Shown piece after piece: positions 20,954 to 46,811 of a stretch of DNA of 64,000 nucleotides (positions are counted from its first letter, which is position 1; each line of letters begins with the position of its first letter). The stretch covers positions 1 through 64,000 of the forward strand of contig NZ_QPGB01000002.1 of assembly GCF_003335215.1 (NCBI RefSeq), written 5' to 3'. The translations under genes were made by a program, and so were the position numbers. This DNA comes from Parvibium lacunae (GTDB lineage: Bacteria; Pseudomonadota; Gammaproteobacteria; Burkholderiales; Burkholderiaceae_D). The notes beneath the pieces are model-generated. The model saw only the letters and a program-made list of their open reading frames with translations, made no database searches and was not told the DNA's origin.

Positions 20954-22138
20954 ATGTTCGGTTCTGCCTCAATCCGCAATGTATCGCGTAAAACCTTTTT
21001 TGTACTGGCTCTGCTTGGCATCGGTGTTGCCTTGGTAATCAAATACGGGCAATCCAACACAGCGCCAGCTCCCCTTGCCAAAGAAGCCAGCAGCCATATC
21101 AAGGTCTTGTCTCCCTCACGTATCGCCATTACCGCAGGCGCACCCCAATTGGCGTATCTCAAAAGTGAACCCACTGAGACCTTTCCGCTCCCATTGGTTG
21201 AACCCCTCAACGCTCGGATCGCCTACAACGAAAACAACACCGCCAGAATCACCAGCCCGATCGCGGCACGGGTTATCCAAATTCAAGCTGAACTGGGTGA
21301 CAACGTAAAGCAAGGCAGTGGGCTGGTGACGCTGGATGCCCCAGACTACGCACAAGCTGTCGCCGATGTCCGTAAAGCAGAAGCCGACTTAGCACTCAAA
21401 GATAAGCAACGTCAACGCGCTGAAATACTCTGGCGCGGGGAAGCCATCGCCCGCCGTGAGGTAGATAATGCCGAAGCTGACTTTCAAGTTGCTGTTGCCG
21501 AAACTCAGCGCGCACGACAGCGCTTGGCGAACCTGACCCATGGCGACAAGGCCAGTACGCAGCAAGGATTACTTACCCTGCGTGCGCCCCTCAATGGCAC
21601 GATTGTGGAACGCCACATCAACCCTGGCAGCGAAGTAGGAACGGGGGATAATCAACCCCTGTTTGTGATCTCTAATTTGAACACCCTGTGGGTTTACGTT
21701 GATTTACCGGAGCGCTACCTGGGTAAAGTCGAACCCGGGATGAATGCGATTCTGACGGCTGACGCTTATCCTGCTGAGCGCTTTGGCGGTACAGTCGAAA
21801 AAGTATCGGCTGTGTTAGATCCCACGACACGTCGCTTTACCGTGCGTTGTCTGTTTCCAAATTCTGAACTGCGGCTAAGACCAGAAATGTTTGCCCAAGT
21901 CACCTTTGCCGCTAAAAACTCACTGGATGTCTGGCGAATTCCCAATTCAGCCTTAATCGTACAGGGGATTCAACAATATGCTTTTATCGAACTCCAACCT
22001 GGGGAATATGAAAAGCGCTCGCTTGATATCCTCAGCAAAGACCATCGCTATAGCTATGTTAGCGGCAACCTAAGTGGCCAACGCGTGGTTGTGAAAGGCG
22101 CTCTATTGCTCAATGCCGAATTACTGGCCGGTAATTAA
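20954..22138 (+). CDS. RND efflux periplasmic adaptor, CzcB-like
   Basis: Membrane-fusion protein linking the inner-membrane pump to the outer-membrane channel. An N-terminal anchor (TFFVLALLGIGVALVIKYG) is followed by the beta-barrel/lipoyl and hairpin parts. ITSPIAARVIQIQAELGDNVKQGSGL is the first lipoyl half, a coiled-coil hairpin of about 70 residues comes next, and LRAPLNGTIVERHINPGSEVGTG is the second half. LWVYVDLPERYLGKVEPGM belongs to the beta barrel. The 394-residue length fits. No N-terminal His/Met-rich metal-binding extension is present, unlike CzcB or CusB, so metal specificity is not shown by this subunit. Confidence 0.9.
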   Translation: MFGSASIRNVSRKTFFVLALLGIGVALVIKYGQSNTAPAPLAKEASSHIKVLSPSRIAITAGAPQLAYLKSEPTETFPLPLVEPLNARIAYNENNTARITSPIAARVIQIQAELGDNVKQGSGLVTLDAPDYAQAVADVRKAEADLALKDKQRQRAEILWRGEAIARREVDNAEADFQVAVAETQRARQRLANLTHGDKASTQQGLLTLRAPLNGTIVERHINPGSEVGTGDNQPLFVISNLNTLWVYVDLPERYLGKVEPGMNAILTADAYPAERFGGTVEKVSAVLDPTTRRFTVRCLFPNSELRLRPEMFAQVTFAAKNSLDVWRIPNSALIVQGIQQYAFIELQPGEYEKRSLDILSKDHRYSYVSGNLSGQRVVVKGALLLNAELLAGN

Positions 22139-22159
22139 CTTGACTGACGAGACTCTCTG

Positions 22160-25100
22160 ATGCGCGCGCTCATTGCTTTTGCAATCCAACAACGGGCCTT
22201 TATCCTACTGTTAACTGGCCTGTTAGCTGTCTTCGGATTTCGTTCTTTTTCAGCGATTCCGATCGAAGCCTTTCCTGACGTCCAAGATGTTCAGGTACAA
22301 ATCGTCACGCAATACCAAGGGCAAGCACCCGAAGAAGTGGAACGGGCAATCAGCTTACCGATTGAACGTGAAATGAGCGGTGTTCCGCGCATGACCCAAA
22401 TGCGCTCCATTTCTATTACCGGTCTCTCAATCGTTACCCTCACGTTTGCCGATGGCACCGATGATCACTTTGCACGGGCCAAGGTACTCGAAAAACTGCA
22501 ACAAGTAAGTTTGCCCCCTGACGCGCAACCGGTCTTAGCGCCGCTAACGACCGCAGTTGGCGAAATCTATCGTTACATTCTTGAAATCCCAGAAAGCATG
22601 AGCCTGCGTGAAGCGCGTGCGATACATGATTGGGTCATTCGCCCGGAATTACGCTTTGTGCCAGGGGTGGCAGATATTGTCAGTTATGGTGCCACGATTA
22701 AACAGTATCAAGTTCGTATCAATCCCTCATTATTGAAAAAATTTGGCGTCACGATCAACGACGTAGCGCAAGCCCTAGAAGCCGGTTCAAGCAATGTTGG
22801 CGGTGGGACTATCCGTACTGGGGAAGAAGCCTACGTCCTGCGCAGTGTGGGCATTTTCCGCTCACTGGATGATATTGGCGATGTCATCGTGGCTGACCGC
22901 CAAGGTAAAACGATTACTGTACGTGATATTGCGATAGTCCAGATTGGCGATCGTCCGCGTACCGGCGTTGTCTCCTTCACCAACACGGAAGAATCGAAAA
23001 ATAGCGTTGTGCAGGGCATTGTGCAAATGACCAAAGGCCAGAACCCTGCAGTCGTGATTGCAGCACTGAAAGAAAAAATTGAATTGCTGAATATCAATGG
23101 CAGATTACCGAAAGAAATCCGCATTCGACCTATCTACGATAGAACCAAGCTGATTGACAACACCCTACATACTGTCGGCCATAACTTACTGGTAGGGGCG
23201 GCATTGGTTGTCGGCATTCTCCTCGTATTTCTACGTAACTGGCGAGCAGCGCTGATTGTTGCCGCAGTAATCCCGCTATCCCTCTTGTTTGCCTTTATTG
23301 CGATGGATCTCAAAGGTCTTTCAGCCAACCTCATTTCGCTCGGTGCCGTTGACTTCGGGATCATTATTGACAGTGCGGTGGTGATGGTCGAAGCACTCAT
23401 GGTTAAGCTGGCCATGGAACATCAAAATCTAGCCATGAATATCCGCACCCCAGAGCGGGCGCTCGGCTGGCGCTTGAGCACCTTACGTACAGTTGCAGCA
23501 GACATGGCGAAACCGATCCTGTTTTCCAAAATCATCATTATTTTGGCATTTCTACCGATCTTTACGTTTCAACGCGTTGAGGGGCGAATTTTTTCTCCCG
23601 TTGCGTTTACGCTCTCTGCCGCGCTGATTGGCGCCATTCTACTCACCTTGCTGCTGGTGCCTGTATTACTCGCTTTCACTATGCATCGCAGTGACATGGG
23701 CGAAAAACATTTAGCCTGGATGGAAGCGCTACAGAAAGGCTATCGACACAAACTACAACAAGCGATGATGTTCAAAAATCGCGTCATCTATGGCTCTTTA
23801 GTCATACTCGCCCTGACACTCAGTACCGTCCCTTTAATGGGAACCGAGTTTTTACCCAAGCTGGATGAAGGCAATATCTGGTTGACCATCTCACTAGCGC
23901 CATCGACGAATTTAGTGCAATCCAAAGAAATGGAAGAAACTATTCGTAGCGTGCTGCGTACCTACCCTGAGGTAAATATGATGATTGGCCAAGTTGGCCG
24001 CCCGGATGACGGGACCGATCCCAAAGGCCCCAATAATATTGAAATTCTTGCCGATCTCAAACCTCATAGCAGTTGGCGCCCCCAATTCAAAGACAAAGAG
24101 GCATTGGTCTCAGATATGTCACGAGCCCTGAGTCAAATACCAGGCTTACCCACCAATTTCTCGCAAGTGATTCAAGACAATGTTGAAGAATCGCTCTCTG
24201 GCGCTAAAGGCGAAATTGCGGTCAAAATTTTCGGCCCCGATCTAGAAATTCTGCAGGATAAAGCAGAGCTGATTGAGACTATTCTCAAGCGGATTCCCGG
24301 CAATGCCGATGTTGCCGCGATTCCTGTTGGCGGGCAAGCCGAAGTCACCATCACCCCTGACCGCCGCAAGATGGCCCGCTACGGTATCAATATCGCCGAC
24401 ATCAACCGGGTCATTGCCACTGCGTTTGGCGGGGCCGATGTGAACGACTTCTTTGAAGGAGACCGTAAATTTGATGTCACGTTACGGCTCCCCGCAGAAT
24501 ACCGGGACTCGATGGAGGACATCTTAAATTTACAAGTCCCGATCCCCAGCGCCATTGATGGCAACATTCAACGGGGTAACTTAACCTTGTCCGAACTTGC
24601 TACAGTCGAAATCCGGCAAGGCGCCTCGCGGATCGCCCGCGAAGGCGGCGGCCGGGTAGGCATCGTAAAAACCAATATCCGTGGGCGGGATATGGGTAGC
24701 TTTGTGCGCGAAGCACAGCAACAAGTTAAAAAAGAAATTCACTTACCCCCCGGTTACTTCATTACCTGGGGGGGGCAATTTGAAAATCAGCAACGCGCCT
24801 CCAAACGCTTAGCAGTGATTGTCCCGATCAGTCTGCTGGGTATTTTTATTGTTCTATTTTGGGCCTTCCGCTCGACCCGGCTGGCATTGCTGGTTCTAGG
24901 CATGGTACCGTTTACTCTGATTGGCGGTCTGGCAGGGCTGGGCCTGGCAGGATTAAATCTATCGATCTCAGCTGCCGTCGGCTTTATCGCCGTAGCGGGT
25001 ATCTCTGTGCAAAATGGAGTGATTTTGGTTGAGCAATATCTGGATAATTTACAGAACGGGGAAGCCCCGCTAACCGCTTTAGTTGAAGGCGCGATCGCTC

Positions 25101-25306
25101 GACTTCGGCCTATTTTAATGACTGCACTCATGGCTGGCTTCGGCCTGCTACCTGCCGCTTTGTCTAATGGCATTGGCTCAGAAACGCAGCGCCCATTTGC
25201 GATTGTGATCGTTGGGGGTATCATTTCTGCGACCTGCTTCACCCTGTTTTTGTTACCCGTCTTGTTGGCACGTTTTGGCTTGCCTCCCACCTCGACACGA
25301 CCCTAG
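22160..25306 (+). CDS. RND efflux pump, heavy-metal efflux type (CzcA family)
   Basis: Proton-driven inner-membrane transporter of 1048 residues, the usual length for the heavy-metal efflux (HME) family. It begins LLTGLLAVFGFRSFSAIPIEAFPDVQDVQVQIVTQY, and the FPDVxxxxV stretch is typical of CzcA/CusA. The proton-relay helix GAVDFGIIIDSAVVMVEAL holds D398, D404 and E411, matching the two Asp and one Glu of CzcA. DGTDPKGPNNIEILADLKP is another HME-family signature, in the porter domain. These features separate it from drug-type AcrB pumps. Substrate could be Zn, Co, Cd or Ni, or monovalent Cu/Ag. No decisive Met triad was identified, so the ion is open. It is followed 9 bp later by a LysR gene. 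Confidence 0.93.
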   Translation: MRALIAFAIQQRAFILLLTGLLAVFGFRSFSAIPIEAFPDVQDVQVQIVTQYQGQAPEEVERAISLPIEREMSGVPRMTQMRSISITGLSIVTLTFADGTDDHFARAKVLEKLQQVSLPPDAQPVLAPLTTAVGEIYRYILEIPESMSLREARAIHDWVIRPELRFVPGVADIVSYGATIKQYQVRINPSLLKKFGVTINDVAQALEAGSSNVGGGTIRTGEEAYVLRSVGIFRSLDDIGDVIVADRQGKTITVRDIAIVQIGDRPRTGVVSFTNTEESKNSVVQGIVQMTKGQNPAVVIAALKEKIELLNINGRLPKEIRIRPIYDRTKLIDNTLHTVGHNLLVGAALVVGILLVFLRNWRAALIVAAVIPLSLLFAFIAMDLKGLSANLISLGAVDFGIIIDSAVVMVEALMVKLAMEHQNLAMNIRTPERALGWRLSTLRTVAADMAKPILFSKIIIILAFLPIFTFQRVEGRIFSPVAFTLSAALIGAILLTLLLVPVLLAFTMHRSDMGEKHLAWMEALQKGYRHKLQQAMMFKNRVIYGSLVILALTLSTVPLMGTEFLPKLDEGNIWLTISLAPSTNLVQSKEMEETIRSVLRTYPEVNMMIGQVGRPDDGTDPKGPNNIEILADLKPHSSWRPQFKDKEALVSDMSRALSQIPGLPTNFSQVIQDNVEESLSGAKGEIAVKIFGPDLEILQDKAELIETILKRIPGNADVAAIPVGGQAEVTITPDRRKMARYGINIADINRVIATAFGGADVNDFFEGDRKFDVTLRLPAEYRDSMEDILNLQVPIPSAIDGNIQRGNLTLSELATVEIRQGASRIAREGGGRVGIVKTNIRGRDMGSFVREAQQQVKKEIHLPPGYFITWGGQFENQQRASKRLAVIVPISLLGIFIVLFWAFRSTRLALLVLGMVPFTLIGGLAGLGLAGLNLSISAAVGFIAVAGISVQNGVILVEQYLDNLQNGEAPLTALVEGAIARLRPILMTALMAGFGLLPAALSNGIGSETQRPFAIVIVGGIISATCFTLFLLPVLLARFGLPPTSTRP

Positions 25307-37873: not shown

Positions 37874-39472
37874 CTAGGGCAGCCCATTTGCGATTGCTTG
37901 CGTGATGGTTTTCACGAGCAAGGAACACATGCTAGGCAGCATCTTGTCGTCAACATCGCCAAAGCCAATGACCAAACCACGACGCTGGCAGCGCTGGGCC
38001 AACTGGCGGTTCCAGTCTGTATCGTGGTGCGCTTCACGGGGGGCGATGGAATAAGACGATAGCGGGCGCGCATATATGCCACATGTCATTAGCGCCTGCG
38101 CGATCAACACATCATCGATACCGGCAGGAAAATGGGCGCAAAGATGCAGCCCTGCCTGTTCCCCGGTTAGGGGAAAAGCATCGCCAAACGCCGCATACCA
38201 TCGCTGTGAAATGTAGCGGCTGCGGGCTTGATAACGTTGTTTTTGGCGCTGACAATGCCTGCTGAAATGACCATCATGCATCCAGGCTGCGAGGGCGGCC
38301 TGCTTGGCATAACCCGGTTCGCGATACTGGCGAGCTTGCCAAGCGACCACCGACGGTACCCAAGACGTCGGAACCACCATGTAGGCAATCTGTACAGCCG
38401 GAAATAAGCTTTTACTAAACGTCCCTAAATAGACGACCTTGGCGAGGGAGTCCGTTTTCTGTGCCAAACCATATAACGATAACAACGGTGGTCCAGCATA
38501 GCGGAACTCACCGTCATAATCGTCTTCCAAAATACACAGATCATGCTGGGACGCAAGCTGTAAGAGCGCTTGCCGTCGTGCCAGACTCATCACAGACCCC
38601 AATGGGTATTGGTGTGAGGGGGTAATGTAGCAAAGCGCGGCCGTGGCCCATTGCGCAGTAGCGCGTGCCTCAACGCACAAGCCCTCAGCATCGACGGGAC
38701 AGGGCACAACAGTTAAGCCTGCAGCGCTCAGCGCCGCATACGCGCCGCCATAACCGGGCGATTCCATGATGGCAAGGTCGCCAACATCGGCCAATAACTC
38801 TGCCATAAGCTTAATCGACTGCTGGGTGTTAGCGGTGATAATCACCTGCGCTGGCGTGCAATGAATCCCCCGTGTCAGTAATAGATGTTCAGCAATCGCT
38901 TGTCGTAGCGATAATTCACCCCCATTCGCGACATACCCCTGCCATTCCAGCTTGGGATTTTTTTGGTAGTGGTTCAGATACCGATGCCAACTCTCAAGCG
39001 GAAAACGACTTAAATCGGGAACCCCCACCGCAAAAGGCCCGCGCATCGGCCCCCAAGGTGCTCCCTGTTGATTGATGCCCTGTGCCCGCTGGCTTAGCCA
39101 TAGGTCTTGCGTTACGGGCAGGGATATTGTCTCGGGCAGACTCCGCTGGGCCACCATCGGCATCGACTTGACAAATAAACCACGACGTGGATGGCTCTCG
39201 ATCAGGTCGTCAGCCAATAACTGCCCAAGCGCATCGAGCACCGCATTGCGTCCCATCGGCAACGATTGCCACAACTGCCGTGAAGACGGCAAGCGTGTTC
39301 CGGCAGCGACACGGGCCGATAAAATATCTTCACGCATCCACGCATAGAGCTGTCTGGGCTTGCTATAGCGCTCAGCGGCACTCGGCGCGGTCAGTAACCC
39401 TTGAAAGCGCGATTGAATGACCTCTAGCCAAGTGGCAGTAACCCAAGCATTTTTCGTCGTTATCTCTGTCAT
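37874..39472 (-). CDS. MocR/PdxR-type regulator (GntR HTH + aminotransferase)
   Basis: A 532-residue regulator. The N-terminal winged HTH of the GntR family contains YAWMREDILSARVAAGTRLPSSRQL and GRNAVLDALGQLLADDLIESHPRRG. The C-terminal class I aminotransferase domain binds PLP: YITPSHQYPLGSVMSLARRQALL, LEDDYDGEFRYAGPPLLSLYG and the lysine in GTFSKSLFPAVQIAY, the expected Schiff-base site. I chose the ATG at 39472; the frame begins with a TTG 12 bp earlier. MocR proteins often control vitamin B6 genes, and the divergent neighbour is a PNPOx-like flavoprotein, so that gene is the likely target. This is an inference from layout. Confidence 0.93.
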   Translation of the reverse strand: MTEITTKNAWVTATWLEVIQSRFQGLLTAPSAAERYSKPRQLYAWMREDILSARVAAGTRLPSSRQLWQSLPMGRNAVLDALGQLLADDLIESHPRRGLFVKSMPMVAQRSLPETISLPVTQDLWLSQRAQGINQQGAPWGPMRGPFAVGVPDLSRFPLESWHRYLNHYQKNPKLEWQGYVANGGELSLRQAIAEHLLLTRGIHCTPAQVIITANTQQSIKLMAELLADVGDLAIMESPGYGGAYAALSAAGLTVVPCPVDAEGLCVEARATAQWATAALCYITPSHQYPLGSVMSLARRQALLQLASQHDLCILEDDYDGEFRYAGPPLLSLYGLAQKTDSLAKVVYLGTFSKSLFPAVQIAYMVVPTSWVPSVVAWQARQYREPGYAKQAALAAWMHDGHFSRHCQRQKQRYQARSRYISQRWYAAFGDAFPLTGEQAGLHLCAHFPAGIDDVLIAQALMTCGIYARPLSSYSIAPREAHHDTDWNRQLAQRCQRRGLVIGFGDVDDKMLPSMCSLLVKTITQAIANGLP

Positions 39473-39572
39473 CAAGCGCGCCAAACTGGTTCTAATAAAT
39501 TAAAAAAACTGTCTCTTTTTAAGGTAACAGAAAAATTTTACAGTAAGGCTCCGACTCCACCAAGGAACCATG

Positions 39573-40238
39573 ATGGCTAACCGTAAAGATTTTTCTCCTA
39601 CCGATAGGACGCGCTTGAAGCGTAAAAGTAATCGGGGGCGCTATGATGCAAAAACCGTCTATGATATTTTAGATGCCGCCATTTTTGCCAGTATTGGATT
39701 CGTGATTGATGGCCAACCGCACCTGATTCCAACCGCCATCTGGCGCGAAGACGTATGGCTCTACATTCATGGCTCCAATGGGAGTCGCTTAATCCAACAC
39801 CTTGCTAGCGGTGCCCCCGCCGTTGTGTCTGTTACCCATTTAGATGGACTGGTACTCGCCCGCTCGGCGTTTCATGGTTCGGTGAACTATCGCTCGGTTT
39901 GCTTGTATGGAGAATTTGAAAAGGTTGAAGCCGCAGAAGAAAAGTATCGCCAAATGCAACTATTTTATGAAAAGCTGGTACCCGGTCGGTGGCAAGATAT
40001 GCGTCCACCGACAGCCAATGAGCTTGCCGCCACGAGTGTGCTCATGATTAGAATTGAGGAAGCCGTTGCCAAGATTCGCAGCGGCCCACCGATTGATGAT
40101 GAGGCTGACATGTTGCTACCGCATTGGGCTGGCGTCATTCCAACTCAGCAGGTGTGGGGGCAACCCCAAGCAGATGAAAAACTCAACCCCTGGGTTGTCA
40201 TGCCAGACTATCTGGCGCGATATGGCGCGCAAGGGTGA
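39573..40238 (+). CDS. PNPOx-like FMN-binding split-barrel protein
   Basis: A 221-residue protein of the pyridoxamine 5'-phosphate oxidase-like superfamily. It contains IGFVIDGQPHLIPTAIWREDVWLYIHGSNGSRLIQHLASGAPAVVSVTHLDGLVLARSAFHGSVNYRSVCLYGEFEKVEAAEEK, the typical split-barrel core. This belongs to the group with HGS and RSAFHxSxNYRSV motifs that is often found beside MocR genes. It is not canonical PdxH, whose substrate-binding motifs are lacking. The ATG at 39573 was chosen because AAGGA is 6 nt upstream; another ATG at 39570 is only 3 nt from it. Role could be flavin, B6 or haem-related, and the substrate is unknown. Confidence 0.85.
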   Translation: MANRKDFSPTDRTRLKRKSNRGRYDAKTVYDILDAAIFASIGFVIDGQPHLIPTAIWREDVWLYIHGSNGSRLIQHLASGAPAVVSVTHLDGLVLARSAFHGSVNYRSVCLYGEFEKVEAAEEKYRQMQLFYEKLVPGRWQDMRPPTANELAATSVLMIRIEEAVAKIRSGPPIDDEADMLLPHWAGVIPTQQVWGQPQADEKLNPWVVMPDYLARYGAQG

Positions 40239-41090
40239 TTACTCAAACCTCACCACCACCTGAGGATTGCCAGGTAAGCCATCATAAATTGCCATGATGG
40301 TTTTACCAGCTGCGCTGGGGATGAGTTTGGAGAAGGAGCCTAGGCTTAATAAGTCTCCAGCTTTAAGCCTAACCCCACGCCGTTGCATTTCTTGCACCAG
40401 CCACAGCACGGCATTAAGCGGATGATCAAGAATCGCGGTTCCCGGGGCGCTGTCAAGCTGCGCACCCGAATCATCCAGCAGTTTCACTTGCATACTGGCC
40501 AACAACGGCACCAGCTCAGCCGTCATTGGCAATGGTTTGCCGAGCGCGCCCTGGCGGGCGCCGACATTGATGATGGTAATGCTATTCGCATTGGCCTGGC
40601 GCATATCGGAAAAGGCTAGGTCGGGCAATTCAATAAAGGGAATCACCGCTTTTACATGTTTAAGCAAATCGGCCTGCGTGCGGGCTTGCATGATGCCAGC
40701 GTCTTTCACTTCCACTAATAAATCGGCTTCAAATAATGGACGGGCACCGAATTGTGCGGGCAGTTTGGCGGGGGAAGTGAGCAAGAGATTTTTGAACAAT
40801 ACCCCCGCCACCGGCGCGTCCGCCCCAAAACGCTTTTGCGTCGCGGGGTTGGTCAAACCGGCTTTGTAGCCTGCCACGGGGCCAAACGCTTGCTGCAAAT
40901 AGCGCACCACTTTCTGTTGGCTGCACAGGGCGTCGGCTGCAGTGATATTGCTGGCCTCAAGGCTAATCAGTTCTTTATTGACGTAGCGGCTGGCAAGCTG
41001 TGCCGCTTCTAAATCACTCAGGCAAGCCGCACTGGCATGGCTGAACGGGAGCCAAGCTAAACACATGACGACCACACAGCGCTTGAACAT
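40239..41090 (-). CDS. Exported hydratase-like protein, FAH/MhpD fold
   Basis: A 283-residue protein with a clear signal peptide (MFKRCVVVMCLAWLPFSHASA, cut near 21) followed by a domain like 2-keto-4-pentenoate hydratase/FAH. Matches include YKAGLTNPATQKRFG (Lys76), FEADLLVEV (E121, D123) and IELPDL (E154), the positions of metal ligands and catalytic lysine in MhpD-type enzymes, with Asp in place of one usual Glu. C-terminal HPLNAVLWLVQEM and LKAGDLLSLGSFSKLIP fit too. These enzymes are normally cytoplasmic, so export is unusual. Cys23 and Cys56 might pair in the periplasm. It follows the patatin gene by 9 bp and is probably the last gene of that operon. It converges with the PNPOx-like gene, stop to stop. 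Confidence 0.8.
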   Translation of the reverse strand: MFKRCVVVMCLAWLPFSHASAACLSDLEAAQLASRYVNKELISLEASNITAADALCSQQKVVRYLQQAFGPVAGYKAGLTNPATQKRFGADAPVAGVLFKNLLLTSPAKLPAQFGARPLFEADLLVEVKDAGIMQARTQADLLKHVKAVIPFIELPDLAFSDMRQANANSITIINVGARQGALGKPLPMTAELVPLLASMQVKLLDDSGAQLDSAPGTAILDHPLNAVLWLVQEMQRRGVRLKAGDLLSLGSFSKLIPSAAGKTIMAIYDGLPGNPQVVVRFE

Positions 41091-41099
41091 GGTGTTTCC

Positions 41100-42209
41100 T
41101 TATAAAAAGACTTTGGCAATATCGAGGCTGGATTTTTCACCGACGCTACGCCAGTGATAACGCAGCCATTGTTTGGCGGCGTGGTAGCCGAGATCGTGTA
41201 ACTTGCTGAGAAATTCCCAACTGGTATTGAATTTTGACGAAGCGCCAAATTCGAGCAGGTCTTGCCCACCATCAATCATGTGCATATAAATGCGTTTGTA
41301 GTGGGCCTCTTGCGCTGACTTACGGCGGAATAAGCGCTGCACAAACCGTGGGGTACGATTTTTAGGGGAGGCTTCTTGAATCTGCCCTTCTTCGAGCATA
41401 CGCTGCACAAATTCAATCGCCCGCATTTCCAGCATCAACGACGAATTAAACGAAATTTCATTCACACGGTCGATGATCTCTGCTGCCGTATCCGGCACTT
41501 GCGCACGCTCCAGCGGATTAATGGCGACCAATAAAATATCCGGTGCATTGGTGGCATATAGCGGGAACAACGATGGATTCCCCATGAAGCCGCCATCCCA
41601 GTACGCTTGGCCTTTAATTTCGACCGCCTGAAAAACAAAGGGCAAACAGGCCGAGGCCATCACCGCGTCGGCACTTAACTCCTCACCCGTGAATACTTTG
41701 GCATGGCCAGTACGCACATTGGTTGCACAGAGGTAAAGGTGAAATGGGCACACTTGCTTGATTTTCTCAAAATCAATCTGGGCCTCGACGACATCACGTA
41801 AGGGATTGAGGTTTAGAGGATTAAGTTGATAGGGAGAAGCGATCCGACTGAGTAAATCAAACCCCATAAAAAAGGGATTGCCTTCCATCGAATAATCGCT
41901 ACCGGTGGCCGCATTCCAGCTACCGAAGCCAGGGCCATCGCTAATGCTTTGCCAAAACGTGGCGAGTTTTTCGCGTGCGCCTGTATGCGGGTCTTGTGGG
42001 TGGCTGGCCCACCCGGCTGCCAGCGCCGCCGCATTCATCGCGCCTGCACTGGTGCCGCTGATCGCCTCTATCTCAATCCGCCCATCTTCGAGTAAGGCGT
42101 CTAATACACCCCAGGTATAGGCCCCATGGGAACCGCCACCTTGTAAAGCAAGGTTAAGCGGCTTTTTTAGCGTTGAGTGAGGAGAAGCCTGCTGTACGGC
42201 GCGATTCAA
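41100..42209 (-). CDS. Patatin-like phospholipase
   Basis: A predicted acyl hydrolase acting on phospholipids or related esters. The 369-residue chain has the oxyanion loop QGGGSHGAYTWG (23-34), nucleophile elbow GTSAG with Ser54, and the catalytic Asp in WDGGFMGNP (Asp205), so the Ser-Asp dyad is complete. No signal peptide is seen. The start is a TTG at 42209, supported by GGAGAGGT 5 nt upstream and by the TTGA overlap with the stop codon of the preceding MFS-PlsC gene; there is no Met before residue 58. Translational coupling with the acyltransferase suggests that deacylation and reacylation of lipids are coordinated. Confidence 0.93.
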   Translation of the reverse strand: MNRAVQQASPHSTLKKPLNLALQGGGSHGAYTWGVLDALLEDGRIEIEAISGTSAGAMNAAALAAGWASHPQDPHTGAREKLATFWQSISDGPGFGSWNAATGSDYSMEGNPFFMGFDLLSRIASPYQLNPLNLNPLRDVVEAQIDFEKIKQVCPFHLYLCATNVRTGHAKVFTGEELSADAVMASACLPFVFQAVEIKGQAYWDGGFMGNPSLFPLYATNAPDILLVAINPLERAQVPDTAAEIIDRVNEISFNSSLMLEMRAIEFVQRMLEEGQIQEASPKNRTPRFVQRLFRRKSAQEAHYKRIYMHMIDGGQDLLEFGASSKFNTSWEFLSKLHDLGYHAAKQWLRYHWRSVGEKSSLDIAKVFL

Positions 42210-44095
42210 CGTACCTCTCCACGCAATGCTTGAACTTTTTCTTGCAAGGCATCCGGTGTCGCCTGCTCAGGCGGCACTGGCTCGCCGACCCGAACGACTA
42301 GGGGGAGAAAAATGCCATGAAAATTTTTCCACGCAAACGCTTTACCCCCCTTACGAGAAAAGAAAGAACCCCATAAACCGGAAAGCGCCATCGGCGTCAC
42401 TGGCACCGCATCATTACTCAGTAGGCGCGTAATGCCAGGCCGGAAGGGGTAGAGTTCGCCGGTATCGGTAATGCGCCCTTCGGGGAAAATACAGAGCAGT
42501 TCGCCGTCACGCAGCACCTTGGAGGCCCGTGCGAAAGCCTTTTCCATGAGTTCAGGGTTAACTTTAGCCGAGGCAATCGGAATCGCCCCGCTATGCTTAA
42601 ACATCCATGACAGCAGCGGGATTTTGAAAATCTGGTGATCCATGATGAAACGAATCGGTCGCGGGCTGACCGCCATCAACACCACGGCATCGACAAAGCT
42701 GACATGGTTGCAAATTAAGATTGCCGCCCCTTTTGCGGGAATCTTCTCGGCCCCTTCAACCCGCAAGCGGTACAAGCTATGGATCAATAACCAAGCGAGA
42801 AAACGAATCAGAAATTCAGGCACTAAGGAGTAGATATAAATCGCCACCCCGGCGTTTAAGATACCCACCACCAAAAACAACTGCGGCATGCTTAAGCCAA
42901 TGCCATTCAGTAGCCAGACCGCCAAACCGGCTGAAAGCACCATCAGTAAGGCATTCAAAATATTATTAGCGGCAATAATCCGCGCGCGATGCGTTGCCTC
43001 GGAACGGGTTTGAATCAGGGCATACAAAGGCACACTGTAGAAGCCCCCAAACATCGCCAACAAAAAGACATCGGCCAACACGCGTAGATGCGCCCAACTC
43101 TGGATAAAGCTCGACCAGGTATGAGGCTGTACCAAATGGGTCACGAGTTGGCTTGCAAAGTACAAGTCCACTGCAAAGAGCGTCATCCCGATTGACCCGA
43201 ATGGCACCAGGCCAATTTCGACCTTGCGCCCTGAGAGTCGCTCACACAGCAGAGAGCCGAGGCCAATCCCAAAAGAAAACACAGCGAGCAAGAGCGTGAC
43301 GACCGACGCATCCCCGTGCAAGACCTCTTTGGCAAATGCCGGGAATTGGGTGAGATAAATAGCACCAAAAAACCAGAGCCAGGAAATGCCCAACATGGAA
43401 AGCCAAACAACTCGGTTTTGGTAAGCCGTGCGCAGGTTTGTCCAGGTTTCCGAAACAGGATTCCAGTTAATCGCTAAATCGGGGGTGATTGCCGGTGAGC
43501 GTGGAATGAAATGGCTGGTGAGCAAGCCCACTAGCGCTACCAGCAGGGAGGCCGCTGCTGCGAAGTAGGCGCTGTACTCGCCCAAATTCGCCAGGCTACC
43601 GCCCAACATCGTGCCCAGCAAAATGGCAACGAAAGTCCCCATTTCAACCAAGCCATTGCCCCCCACAATTTCTTCTCGCACCAAATGCTGCGGCAAATAG
43701 GCATACTTCACAGGCCCAAAAATAGTGGAGTGCAAGCCCATCATAAACGTACAGGCTAATAAAACCGGGACATTTTTGTCGATAAAACCATAGGTGGCAG
43801 CCGCCATAATGAGCAATTCAAGCCACTTGACGCTGCGCATAATCAAGGCTTTGTCGTACTTGTCGGCCAGCTGGCCACTGGTAGCGGAAAATAAGACAAA
43901 CGGCAGAATAAAGAGGCCTGCAATCGCATTCGCCAGCACACTTAGTGGTAACGTTGAAATTTCCGCCGCATGAAAAGTAACCAGCAACGTAAATGAAAAT
44001 TTGAAAATATTATCGTTCGCTGCGCCTAAAAACTGCGTCCAGAAAAACGGGGCAAAGCGCCGTTGCGTGAGTAGCTGAAATTGACTCTGGCTCAC
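42206..44095 (-). CDS. MFS transporter fused to PlsC acyltransferase (LplT-Aas like)
   Basis: A 629-residue fusion. The first ~400 residues are an MFS transporter with 12 hydrophobic segments, beginning QRRFAPFFWTQFLGAANDNIFKFSF, as in lysophospholipid transporters of the LplT type. The last ~200 residues are a 1-acyl-glycerol-3-phosphate acyltransferase-like domain with NHVSFVDAVVL (near 463), FPEGRITDTGELYPFRPG and PVTPMALSGLWGS. Unlike E. coli Aas, no acyl-ACP synthetase domain follows. The start is a GTG at 44095 after GGAGAG; the frame extends to 44140 without support. I infer flipping and reacylation of lysophospholipids. It sits in an operon with patatin and yggL. Confidence 0.9.
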   Translation of the reverse strand: MSQSQFQLLTQRRFAPFFWTQFLGAANDNIFKFSFTLLVTFHAAEISTLPLSVLANAIAGLFILPFVLFSATSGQLADKYDKALIMRSVKWLELLIMAAATYGFIDKNVPVLLACTFMMGLHSTIFGPVKYAYLPQHLVREEIVGGNGLVEMGTFVAILLGTMLGGSLANLGEYSAYFAAAASLLVALVGLLTSHFIPRSPAITPDLAINWNPVSETWTNLRTAYQNRVVWLSMLGISWLWFFGAIYLTQFPAFAKEVLHGDASVVTLLLAVFSFGIGLGSLLCERLSGRKVEIGLVPFGSIGMTLFAVDLYFASQLVTHLVQPHTWSSFIQSWAHLRVLADVFLLAMFGGFYSVPLYALIQTRSEATHRARIIAANNILNALLMVLSAGLAVWLLNGIGLSMPQLFLVVGILNAGVAIYIYSLVPEFLIRFLAWLLIHSLYRLRVEGAEKIPAKGAAILICNHVSFVDAVVLMAVSPRPIRFIMDHQIFKIPLLSWMFKHSGAIPIASAKVNPELMEKAFARASKVLRDGELLCIFPEGRITDTGELYPFRPGITRLLSNDAVPVTPMALSGLWGSFFSRKGGKAFAWKNFHGIFLPLVVRVGEPVPPEQATPDALQEKVQALRGEVR

Positions 44096-44179
44096 AATCG
44101 ACTCTCCTACGCTAAGGAAACAGGGATTGATCTTCGCCAATGACGCGAAGCGCTGGCGATGCGGGCATCAAGGCCGTGA

Positions 44180-44557
44180 TCACCCTAATGTGGGTTGCTC
44201 ATACCAGCCGTCAGCCAAGACGGCTTGCAGTGTTTGTATTGCTGGGTCTTGTATTAACTTGGCTTGTACTTGCTGTGCCAATTCCGGGGTCACTGAGCCA
44301 TGTGGATGCAGGAACAACCATCCTTGCGTCATGGCAAGCGGTAACTTACCACCAAAGCCCCCAACTTCAAGACCAAATTCGGCTGCCGTTTCGATCCAGC
44401 GGACGATCCAATCATCCCATGCCGTTTCGTCTAGGGGCTGCTTAAAGTGAAGCGCAATAAATAGACCGACTTCCTTAAACTCTGCCACGTGCAGCTTTTT
44501 GCGCTGGCGGCGATTCATGCGGCTGATCCGACTTGCTCCTGGCACCGTTTTCAACAT
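44180..44557 (-). CDS. yggL: YggL (DUF469) family ribosome-associated protein
   Basis: A 125-residue protein matching the YggL/DUF469 family by MNRRQRKKLHVAEFKEVGLFIALHF at its start. E. coli YggL associates with the 50S ribosomal subunit. The core (DETAWDDWIVRWIETAAEFGLEVGGFGGKL) and the 110-125 residue size also fit. The ATG at 44557 has AGAGGT directly against it, and Met14 (at 44518) is an equally good family start. It is 84 bp ahead of the MFS-PlsC gene on the same strand and may lead that operon, although the gap could hold a separate promoter. Confidence 0.8.
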   Translation of the reverse strand: MLKTVPGASRISRMNRRQRKKLHVAEFKEVGLFIALHFKQPLDETAWDDWIVRWIETAAEFGLEVGGFGGKLPLAMTQGWLFLHPHGSVTPELAQQVQAKLIQDPAIQTLQAVLADGWYEQPTLG

Positions 44558-44610: not shown

Positions 44611-44643
44611 AAAAAACGCCAGTGACTCACATCACTGGCGTTT
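44611..44643 (-). terminator. Rho-independent terminator of pnp
   Basis: A 12-bp stem (AAACGCCAGTGA and complement) with a 6-nt loop is followed on the minus strand by a run of T. It lies 20 bp after the pnp stop codon and before yggL. Confidence 0.9.
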
Positions 44644-44663: not shown

Positions 44664-46811
44664 TTATTGCTGCTGCTGTTGCTGCTGTTGCTGCTGTTGC
44701 TGCTCAGCACCTTCATTCAGCAACGCTTTCATGCTCAATCGCACGCGGCCTTTGTCATCCATTTCGATCACTTTTACGCGAACAACCTGACCTTCTTTCA
44801 GCACCGATTTAATGTCAGCGATACGTTCGTTGGCAATCTGGCTGATGTGCAAGAGGCCTTCTTTACCGGGCAGTAAGGATACGACCGCGCCAAAGTCGAG
44901 CAGCTTGGTAATCGGGCCTTCGTAGATTTGGCCCATTTCTACTTCCGCGGTAATCGCGGCGATACGGGCTTTGGCCAGCTCACCTTGTTCCGCGCTGAAG
45001 CAGGCGATGGTGACGGTACCATCATCTTGCAAATCAATCTGAGTCCCGGTTTCTTCGGTCAGCGCACGGATCGTCGCGCCACCTTTACCGATTACATCAC
45101 GGATTTTTTCAGGATTGATTTTCATCGTGATCATACGGGGAGCGTGATCTGACAGTTCAGTACGCGCACCGTTAATCGCTTGTTGCATCTGGCCGAGAAT
45201 GTGCATACGGGCTTCTTTAGCTTGCGCCAAGGCCACTTGCATGATCTCTTTGGTAATGCCTTGGATTTTGATATCCATTTGCAAGGCGGTAATCCCATTT
45301 GCGGTACCGGCCACTTTAAAGTCCATATCACCTAAGTGATCTTCATCACCCAGAATGTCGGTCAACACCGCGAACTTGTTGCCATCTTTAATCAAACCCA
45401 TGGCAATACCCGCCACGTGATCTTTAACAGGCACGCCCGCATCCATCATGGACAAGCAACCACCGCACACGGAGGCCATTGAAGAAGAGCCGTTGGACTC
45501 GGTGATTTCAGAGACCACGCGCAGGGAGTAACCGAATTCGTCTGCGGACGGCAGCAAAGGCACCAAAGCCCGTTTTGCTAAACGACCATGGCCGATTTCA
45601 CGACGCTTAGGAGCACCGAAGCGGCCAGTTTCGCCGGTGGCAAATGGGGGCATGTTGTAGTTGAACATGAAGCGATCACGGTATTCACCAGCCAGCGCAT
45701 CAATGATTTGTTCATCTTGTTTCGTGCCCAAGGTGGTCACCACCAAGGCTTGGGTTTCACCACGGGTAAACAAAGCGGAACCATGGACGCGTGGCAGGAC
45801 GCCTAAACGAATGCTGATCGGACGTACGGTACGGGTATCGCGGCCGTCAATCCGTGGCTCGCCCTCCAGAATCTGGCTACGCACAATCTTGGCTTCCAGA
45901 TCAAACAGCAAGTTATCCACTTCGGTGCTGTCCGGTGCGGCGGCATTTTGCGCAGCGGCTTCGGCCGCCAAGGCTTCATGCACTTGCGCATACACTTTGC
46001 GCACTTCTTGGGTACGGGCTTGTTTTTGTTTGATTTGGTAGGCAGTGCGCAACGCGGCTTCGGCCAAGGCACCTACACGGCTAATCAGAGTTTCATTCTT
46101 CGCCGCAGGCTGCCAATCCCAAGCGGGTTTGCCTGCTGTCGCGACCAACTCATGAATCGAATTGATCACGGCTTGCATTTGCTCATGGCCATACACCACC
46201 GCACCCAACATCACGTCTTCAGTGAGTTGATGCGCTTCGGATTCCACCATCAACACAGCTTGCTCGGTACCGGCAACCACGAGGTCAAGCTGGGTTTCTT
46301 TGAGCTGGCTAGCGGTGGGGTTCAACACATACTGACCATTGATATAACCCACACGGGCGGCACCAATCGGGCCATTAAAAGGCACACCAGAAATCGACAG
46401 TGCCGCAGAGGAAGCGATCAGCGCGGGAATGTCCGCATCAATTTCCGGATCGAGCGACAACACATGCACAATCACTTGCACTTCGTTGTAGAAACCTTCG
46501 GGGAACAGCGGGCGCAACGGACGGTCGATCAAACGACTGGTCAGCGTTTCTTTTTCGCTAGCACGACCTTCACGTTTGAAAAAACCACCGGGGATACGAC
46601 CTGCTGCATAGAATTTTTCCGCGTAGTCAACCGTTAAAGGGAAAAAGTCTTGGCCAGGTTTTGCTTCTTTTTGGGCCACGACGGTCGCTAGGACCACGGT
46701 GTCTCCCATTGAGGCCACCACTGCACCACTGGCTTGACGGGCAACTTCGCCCGTTTCGAGGGTGACGGTATGTTGGCCGTAGGGAAAACTGACTTTTGCA
46801 ACATTAAACAT
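44664..46811 (-). CDS. pnp: Polynucleotide phosphorylase with polyglutamine tail
   Basis: 3'-5' phosphorolytic exoribonuclease of the RNA degradosome. The 715-residue chain has two RNase PH domains ([63 protein letters not shown]), a KH domain ([27 protein letters not shown]) and an S1 domain ([31 protein letters not shown]). The protein ends right after S1 with LLNEGAE and 12 consecutive Gln, encoded by CAG/CAA triplets at 44667-44702. The tail replaces the longer variable or degradosome-binding ends of other PNPases. It follows rpsO, the ancestral order. Confidence 0.98.
44667..44702 (-). repeat. CAG/CAA trinucleotide tract in pnp
   Basis: Twelve consecutive glutamine codons. On the plus strand they read as units of TTG CTG CTG, a near-perfect 9-bp period. 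The tract can expand or shrink by slippage without breaking the frame. Confidence 0.95.

Follow-up and report, generated by a model that had tools for sequence, protein, structure and literature searches.

Parvibium lacunae (Burkholderiales, Burkholderiaceae_D) carries four closely packed genes on the minus strand of contig NZ_QPGB01000002.1 (assembly GCF_003335215.1). They raise the question of whether an exported, hydratase-like protein (hereafter the hydratase) takes part in the lipid turnover for which the genes ahead of it appear to code. We studied the locus within the first 64,000 nucleotides of the contig (forward strand; the window, to which all positions refer). A sequence-only reading of this DNA had proposed the hydratase as a step of the lipid system. 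Our analysis led us to a different view: the locus rather likely consists of a coupled phospholipid-remodelling pair, formed by an LplT-PlsC fusion and a patatin, with the gene of a stand-alone exported enzyme behind it.

The list of open reading frames (ORFs), the sequence and the family calls bear out the gene arrangement first read from the letters. The four minus-strand ORFs encode a yggL product (44180..44557, 125 amino acids; PF04320, Pfam E 6.5e-13), a fusion of an MFS lysophospholipid transporter with an acyltransferase (42206..44095), a patatin-like hydrolase (41100..42209) and the hydratase (40239..41090, 283 amino acids). The two junctions had also been read correctly. The TTG start of the patatin at 42209 overlaps the TGA stop of the fusion (TTGA, 42206..42209), with a GGAGAGG ribosome site just 5' of it, and the hydratase ATG lies 9 bp past the patatin TAA, with an AAGGA site. 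The stop/start overlap likely couples the translation of the fusion to that of the patatin. The fusion ORF is open to a TTG at 44140, but a start at the GTG at 44095 appears more likely: the alignments to most relatives begin no earlier than about residues 11-19, and the GTG has a GGAGAG site ahead of it. With this start, the gap between yggL and the fusion is 84 nt instead of 39 and could contain a promoter.

Pfam assigned the fusion to MFS_1 and Acyltransferase and the third protein to Patatin. The fusion matched NF005291 (acyl-ACP-phospholipid O-acyltransferase) with E 1e-158 and the LplT model of NCBIfam with E 1.5e-25, and the acyltransferase motifs NHVSFVD, GAIPI and FPEG are present. 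It therefore contains the MFS (LplT) and PlsC domains of LplT-PlsC-Aas proteins. The C-terminal acyl-ACP synthetase domain is absent: the match to NF005291 covers only positions 3-576 of 1140, the N-terminal part of the profile, and the protein of 644 amino acids has no AMP-binding Pfam match. The patatin scored 95.8 bits against a Pfam cut-off of 27.7, and its GGGSHG motif and the Ser-Asp dyad motifs GTSAG and DGG are intact, as in patatin-like phospholipases. Its nearest solved sequence is PlpD (E 2e-10). It matched five NCBIfam models, each with a score under the respective cut-off. No export signal was called in the patatin under the same crude rule that was applied to the hydratase set (see below).

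Among 100 genomes (the own genome included), relatives of the fusion were found in 75 (E 1e-60; part of these cover the MFS half only), relatives of the patatin in 26 (E 1e-40) and yggL matches in 5 (E 1e-4). In one genome, G066, the fusion is followed directly by the patatin, with a GTGA 4-bp stop/start overlap in place of TTGA and about 61% identity in each protein. In a tblastn survey of 137 loci (L057-L193, including L093-L095 of the own genome), L077 (G066) and L094 of the own genome were the only ones with both genes; 24 had the patatin alone and 9 the fusion alone. The patatin loci examined outside the own genome (25) are a subset of the patatin matches, and some are paralogues at about 40% identity; the own genome itself has two further patatins. 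We therefore take the fusion/patatin pair to be real but rare. G066 yielded no yggL match in the scan at E 1e-4; it was also one of the 392 family genomes scanned for the hydratase and gave no match to it at E 1e-25. None of the four other yggL genes stands beside the fusion: one is 1.2 Mb distant from it, and the rest are on different contigs. The fusion and the patatin are best read as serving phospholipid remodelling, given their families, their motifs and the overlap kept in G066. The earlier suggestion that the first enzymes fit phospholipid repair gains support from the same features. If this reading holds, the LplT-PlsC/patatin pair would offer a compact system in which to test how hydrolysis and re-acylation are coupled.

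Of the 392 genomes of the family, 21 hold a strong relative of the hydratase (E 1e-25), as do 6 of 369 genomes of the class; both counts include the own genome. A first scan of named genomes with the single protein gave no match. An alignment query then gave at least 363 relatives among 584 candidate stretches, and the best 80 of these were used for the counts that follow. They derive from many Acidovorax and other Comamonadaceae and also from Zoogloea, Dechloromonas, Azotobacter, Herbaspirillum and Siccirubricoccus, and they include a cyanobacterial metagenome-assembled genome (MAG) and a MAG labelled Myxococcota. Two loci, L105 and L169, belong to MAGs whose records bear the name Bordetella parapertussis. 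In the hydratase tree, L105 clusters with MAGs of unclassified Burkholderiales, so this name is probably wrong. The window hydratase sits on a long branch without firm support in this tree. A plasmid protein search with the hydratase returned 447 records, all below 60% identity, with 26-30% among the 15 matches listed. Judged by titles and the beginnings of abstracts, we found no description of a periplasmic or exported MhpD- or FAH-type hydratase in the open-access literature; the papers returned dealt with genomes, proteomes, expression or other topics. The hydratase is a member of a broad subfamily with export signals that is apparently uncharacterised so far.

The hydratase matched no Pfam family at E 0.001. 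This includes PF01557, the Pfam family of the FAH superfamily, even though chains with the FAH fold, for example 6j5y, can be aligned to its model with Z 17.7. The best named relatives in NCBIfam were HpaH, MhpD, DmpE and DmpH at 58-66 bits, far below their equivalog cut-offs of 350-409. An AlphaFold model was made from alignment A2, which consists of the window sequence as first row and 59 of the best 80 relatives, and reached a mean pLDDT (predicted local distance difference test) of 93.8. Foldseek and VIA-align ranked MhpD, HpcG, NahK and AP-3 decarboxylase-hydratase first for this model. The alignment to MhpD (1sv6) gave Z 33.2 and 2.1 Å over 256 residues, with Z 30-33 across MhpD, HpcG and NahK, while FAHD1, YisK and similar enzymes of the FAH fold reached only Z ~17, well below the MhpD group. 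The hydratase is thus predicted to have the MhpD/HpcG/NahK fold over its whole length.

A candidate active site is kept together with this fold. K76, E121, D123, E154, N175 and R179 are present in 60 of 60 rows of A2. A second alignment, A1 (23 rows), has K76, E121 and D123 in 22 rows each, E154 and N175 in all 23 and R179 in 21. In alignments to MhpD, E121 and D123 fall on the EAE motif (with Asp for Glu), E154 on a later Glu and K76 on the lysine of GRK, positions that bind metal and substrate in MhpD. At R179, MhpD has Gly, and this arginine marks the exported subfamily. Metal dependence and an activity on 2-oxo acids would fit these residues and the predicted model; the metal, the reaction and the substrate are all putative. 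Genome G050 holds two divergent copies of the exported family (L067 and L068), each with a changed likely catalytic residue.

MhpD-type hydratases are cytoplasmic enzymes of aromatic ring breakdown. This signal-free character of the family was not found in the hydratase subfamily. We used a home-made, crude rule and not a trained predictor, in which a hydrophobic stretch has to be combined with a cleavage-like motif or a lipobox. It called 77 of 80 relatives (61 like signal peptidase I substrates, 16 with lipobox) in comparison to 2 of 25 ordinary MhpD-like relatives, and 22 of the 23 rows of A1. A hydrophobicity threshold alone gave 77 of 80 against 4 of 25. The control set of 25 ordinary relatives rules out that the signal peptide is a product of chance or an artefact. 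Three relatives were not called (L151, L162 and L174), and their chosen starts look truncated or misplaced by reading. In the window, the signal peptide covers approximately residues 1-21/22 (41025..41090, minus strand), with cleavage near ASA/AC as judged by eye from the relatives; the script rule gives SHA, residue 19. We conclude that the hydratase is very probably exported and that some members of the subfamily are apparently lipid-anchored. The signal peptide noticed in the single sequence turns out to be the rule in the subfamily, and its absence from homologues, which would have spoken against the sequence-only interpretation, was not observed.

Two cysteines add to this picture. C23, which sits just past the likely cleavage site, and C56 occur together in 55 and are both missing in 5 of the 60 rows of A2; the respective numbers for A1 are 19 and 4 of 23 rows, and no row of either alignment has only one of the two. 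These rows are related and do not represent independent events, and A1 and A2 have the window and two further places in common. Rows without the pair fall in three parts of the hydratase tree (by reading). The co-occurrence is as expected for a disulfide in an oxidising compartment, which C23 and C56 would probably form.

If the hydratase were a part of the lipid system, its relatives might be accompanied by the other genes of the locus. Relatives of the patatin, the fusion and yggL (tblastn, E 1e-5) were found in 0 of 100 loci of hydratase relatives. These loci comprise the 80 from named genomes and 20 further ones (L057/L096 and L058/L100 are the same places); flanks longer than 2.5 kb are present on both sides in 67 of them and on one or both sides in 97. 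The other three genes were likewise missing from 30 short hydratase loci, of which 20 coincide with wider ones. Elsewhere, none of the wide or short loci that we examined shows the four-gene order. The proposal of the sequence-only reading that the hydratase is a step of the lipid system is left unsupported by these counts. Conservation of the neighbourhood held for one part of the locus, with fusion and patatin together in G066, and failed for the other, the hydratase and yggL being separate from them.

Other neighbours do recur beside the hydratase. They were taken from simple ORF picks, which include shadow ORFs in G+C-rich loci; annotation covers a minority of them, and recurrence is given without a chance expectation. 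An HSL-type esterase (PF07859) follows on the same strand in 34 of 80 loci, with the match starting -1 to 104 bp past the hydratase, and lies further off in 2 more. This recurrent gene pair is seen in L122, L133 and 32 others of L096-L175. All but one of these 34 members cluster in a single group of the tree, made up largely of Comamonadaceae, and the remaining one (Aquabacterium, L097) falls in a different group; the linkage may have had a single origin and would then represent few events. A FabI-like gene (PF13561; FabI by reading) lies directly upstream of the hydratase in 7 of 80 loci. Just downstream, a glycosyltransferase was found in 4, a peptide deformylase (by eye) in 3 and a chalcone-isomerase-like gene in 3, and a TAXI-type solute-binding gene (PF16868) is near the hydratase in 5. 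The 20 further loci show diverse contexts, among them glutamate-synthase-like, Trk, M18 peptidase, amino-acid kinase/GNAT and GGDEF-EAL genes. In three loci of genus g5 (L059, L063 and L066), the hydratase stands beside a glutamate-synthase-like protein (PF01645) of 531-555 amino acids. The hydratase gene is found in many contexts, in which ester- or acyl-handling enzymes recur, but in few lineages.

Three candidates were discarded. A 752-amino-acid hydratase "fusion" in family f172 was not retained, as the hydratase of L072 and L074 is an ORF of 296 and 300 amino acids, respectively, with a 4-bp overlap with a separate kinase/GNAT gene. A conserved upstream partner of 410 amino acids in Acidovorax had no family match and was taken as a shadow ORF antisense to the iron-type alcohol dehydrogenase of related loci. 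The gene pnp was dropped as a common neighbour, since only stretches of 70-75 residues, S1-like by reading, matched in 5 of 80 loci.

In the mechanism that we favour, the cytosolic patatin would cleave acyl chains off phospholipids, the MFS half of the fusion would flip the lysophospholipid inward and the PlsC half would re-acylate it. The hydratase would be secreted through Sec and held by the C23-C56 disulfide. With a metal on E121, D123 and E154, and with K76, it would act in the periplasm on a small acid of the 2-oxo or 2-hydroxy-dienoic type, by hydration, dehydration, tautomerisation or decarboxylation. Its position behind the lipid genes is seen in the own genome only and is no proof of a lipid enzyme. 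A separately evolved exported enzyme behind the lipid pair is the best account of it, although an ester theme common to both is possible. The subfamily, in which export signals are the rule and the likely catalytic residues are kept, would then place a 2-oxo-acid reaction in the periplasm.

We consider it unlikely that the hydratase catalyses a further step of the lipid pathway in the periplasm, acting on a head-group or an oxidised acyl fragment from phospholipid turnover. The absence of patatin, fusion and yggL from all 100 relative loci argues against such a step, as do the few events behind the esterase linkage and the unrelated genes that other members adjoin. Additionally, the patatin, without an export signal by the rule, would act on the opposite side of the membrane. 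The 9-bp spacing after the patatin fits this idea nonetheless, as do the HSL-type ester hydrolase directly downstream and the FabI-like gene directly upstream of some relatives. Another proposal extends to Betaproteobacteria and others: an exported, disulfide-bearing MhpD descendant would be a dedicated envelope enzyme, partnered by an enzyme for esters or acyl groups whose family varies (the HSL esterase in Comamonadaceae, the patatin here, FabI elsewhere), and would process a periplasmic 2-oxo acid that stems from lipids or esters. We regard this as quite unlikely; if true, it would reveal an unrecognised branch of envelope lipid or ester metabolism. It is also doubtful that the patatin is an intracellular esterase of the hydroxybutyrate or ketone-body type, whose pairing with the fusion would be secondary. 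The overlap with the fusion is kept in G066, and the own genome has no acetoacetate decarboxylase match and has the two further patatins as well. It is very unlikely, finally, that the hydratase is an enzyme no more and serves as a periplasmic binding or structural protein on an old fold, given how constantly K76, E121, D123, E154 and N175 are kept in both alignments.

Several observations nevertheless weigh against the reading of a phospholipid-remodelling pair with a stand-alone exported enzyme. In two loci of genus g5 (L176 and L180), a patatin relative is followed by an acetoacetate decarboxylase, so the substrate of the patatin need not be a phospholipid. A short-chain dehydrogenase lies on the other side of the patatin relative in L180, and the upstream ORF in L176 resembles the end of one by eye; the neighbourhood is possibly a ketone-body or polyhydroxybutyrate gene set, which speaks for the esterase function discussed above. 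Two distant members from G050 have changes at positions that are likely catalytic (E121 to S in L003; K76 to R and D123 to S in L024), as a protein that has lost its activity might; they account for the A1 rows that lack K76, E121 or D123. L068, also in G050, is a distant member with a change at a likely catalytic position, and a canonical MhpD-like gene is found some 3 kb from it. It is the only such locus among the identified neighbours, and a ring-breakdown context is conceivable there. The position of the hydratase beside ester- or acyl-handling enzymes (HSL, FabI and here the patatin) makes a lipid link conceivable. Furthermore, the contig of G066 ends about 460 nt past the patatin, and among the genomes covered the own one is the sole member of its genus.

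Bacterial genes are often packed this closely, and the four genes probably form a short transcript. A terminator-like hairpin (13 pairs and then a T run; 44614..44643, minus strand) lies between pnp and yggL and is a probable upstream transcript border. It separates the two genes, so that yggL would be the first gene of the transcript. The region holds 9 terminator-like sites in comparison to a shuffled mean of 7.4 (sd, standard deviation, 2.4), which is not above chance. A promoter scan found 1 site, where shuffled sequence has 4.8 on average, and neither of the two counts is evidence when taken alone. Rfam gave no matches at gathering scores within 37-48 kb. The hydratase gene has a G+C content of 54.3%, compared with 51.6% in the patatin and fusion genes and 52.3% in the whole window, and these differences were not informative as to a recent foreign origin of the hydratase. 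At the other end, the hydratase abuts, without a spacer, the stop of a convergent gene at 40238. This pyridoxamine 5'-phosphate-oxidase-like gene (39570-40238, plus strand) is divergent from a MocR/PdxR-like regulator (37874-39484, minus strand; 353 bits, PdxR cut-off 320). The pnp product (44664-46811, minus strand; polynucleotide phosphorylase by sequence reading) ends, directly before the stop, in 12 consecutive glutamines with CAG/CAA repeats as their codons. Adjacent ORFs of 394 and 1048 amino acids at 20954-25306 (plus strand) have the size of an RND efflux pair, and relatives of them occur near the hydratase in genus g5.

Among known systems, the pair comes closest to LplT-Aas of E. coli and to the fused LplT-PlsC-Aas proteins. 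E. coli LplT and Aas form a complex, and single-ORF fusions are mentioned as uncharacterised (PMC11416262). The window fusion likewise puts an MFS flippase and an acyltransferase in one polypeptide. It differs in having no acyl-ACP synthetase (AMP-ligase) domain and in the patatin gene that overlaps its stop codon. The window patatin shares the oxyanion motif, GxSxG and DGG with PlpD, RssA and their kin, but has no export signal by the rule and falls under the cut-offs of the NCBIfam models matched. The hydratase resembles the MhpD, HpcG (HpaH) and DmpE hydratases and the NahK and DmpH 4-oxalocrotonate decarboxylases in its whole-length predicted fold (Z 30-33), at 16-26% identity and with the Lys and acidic positions aligned. 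In contrast to these enzymes, its subfamily has a signal peptide or lipobox and a co-occurring Cys pair, reads EAD for EAE and NVGAR for DNASC/DNASA, and scores about one fifth or less of the curated cut-offs.

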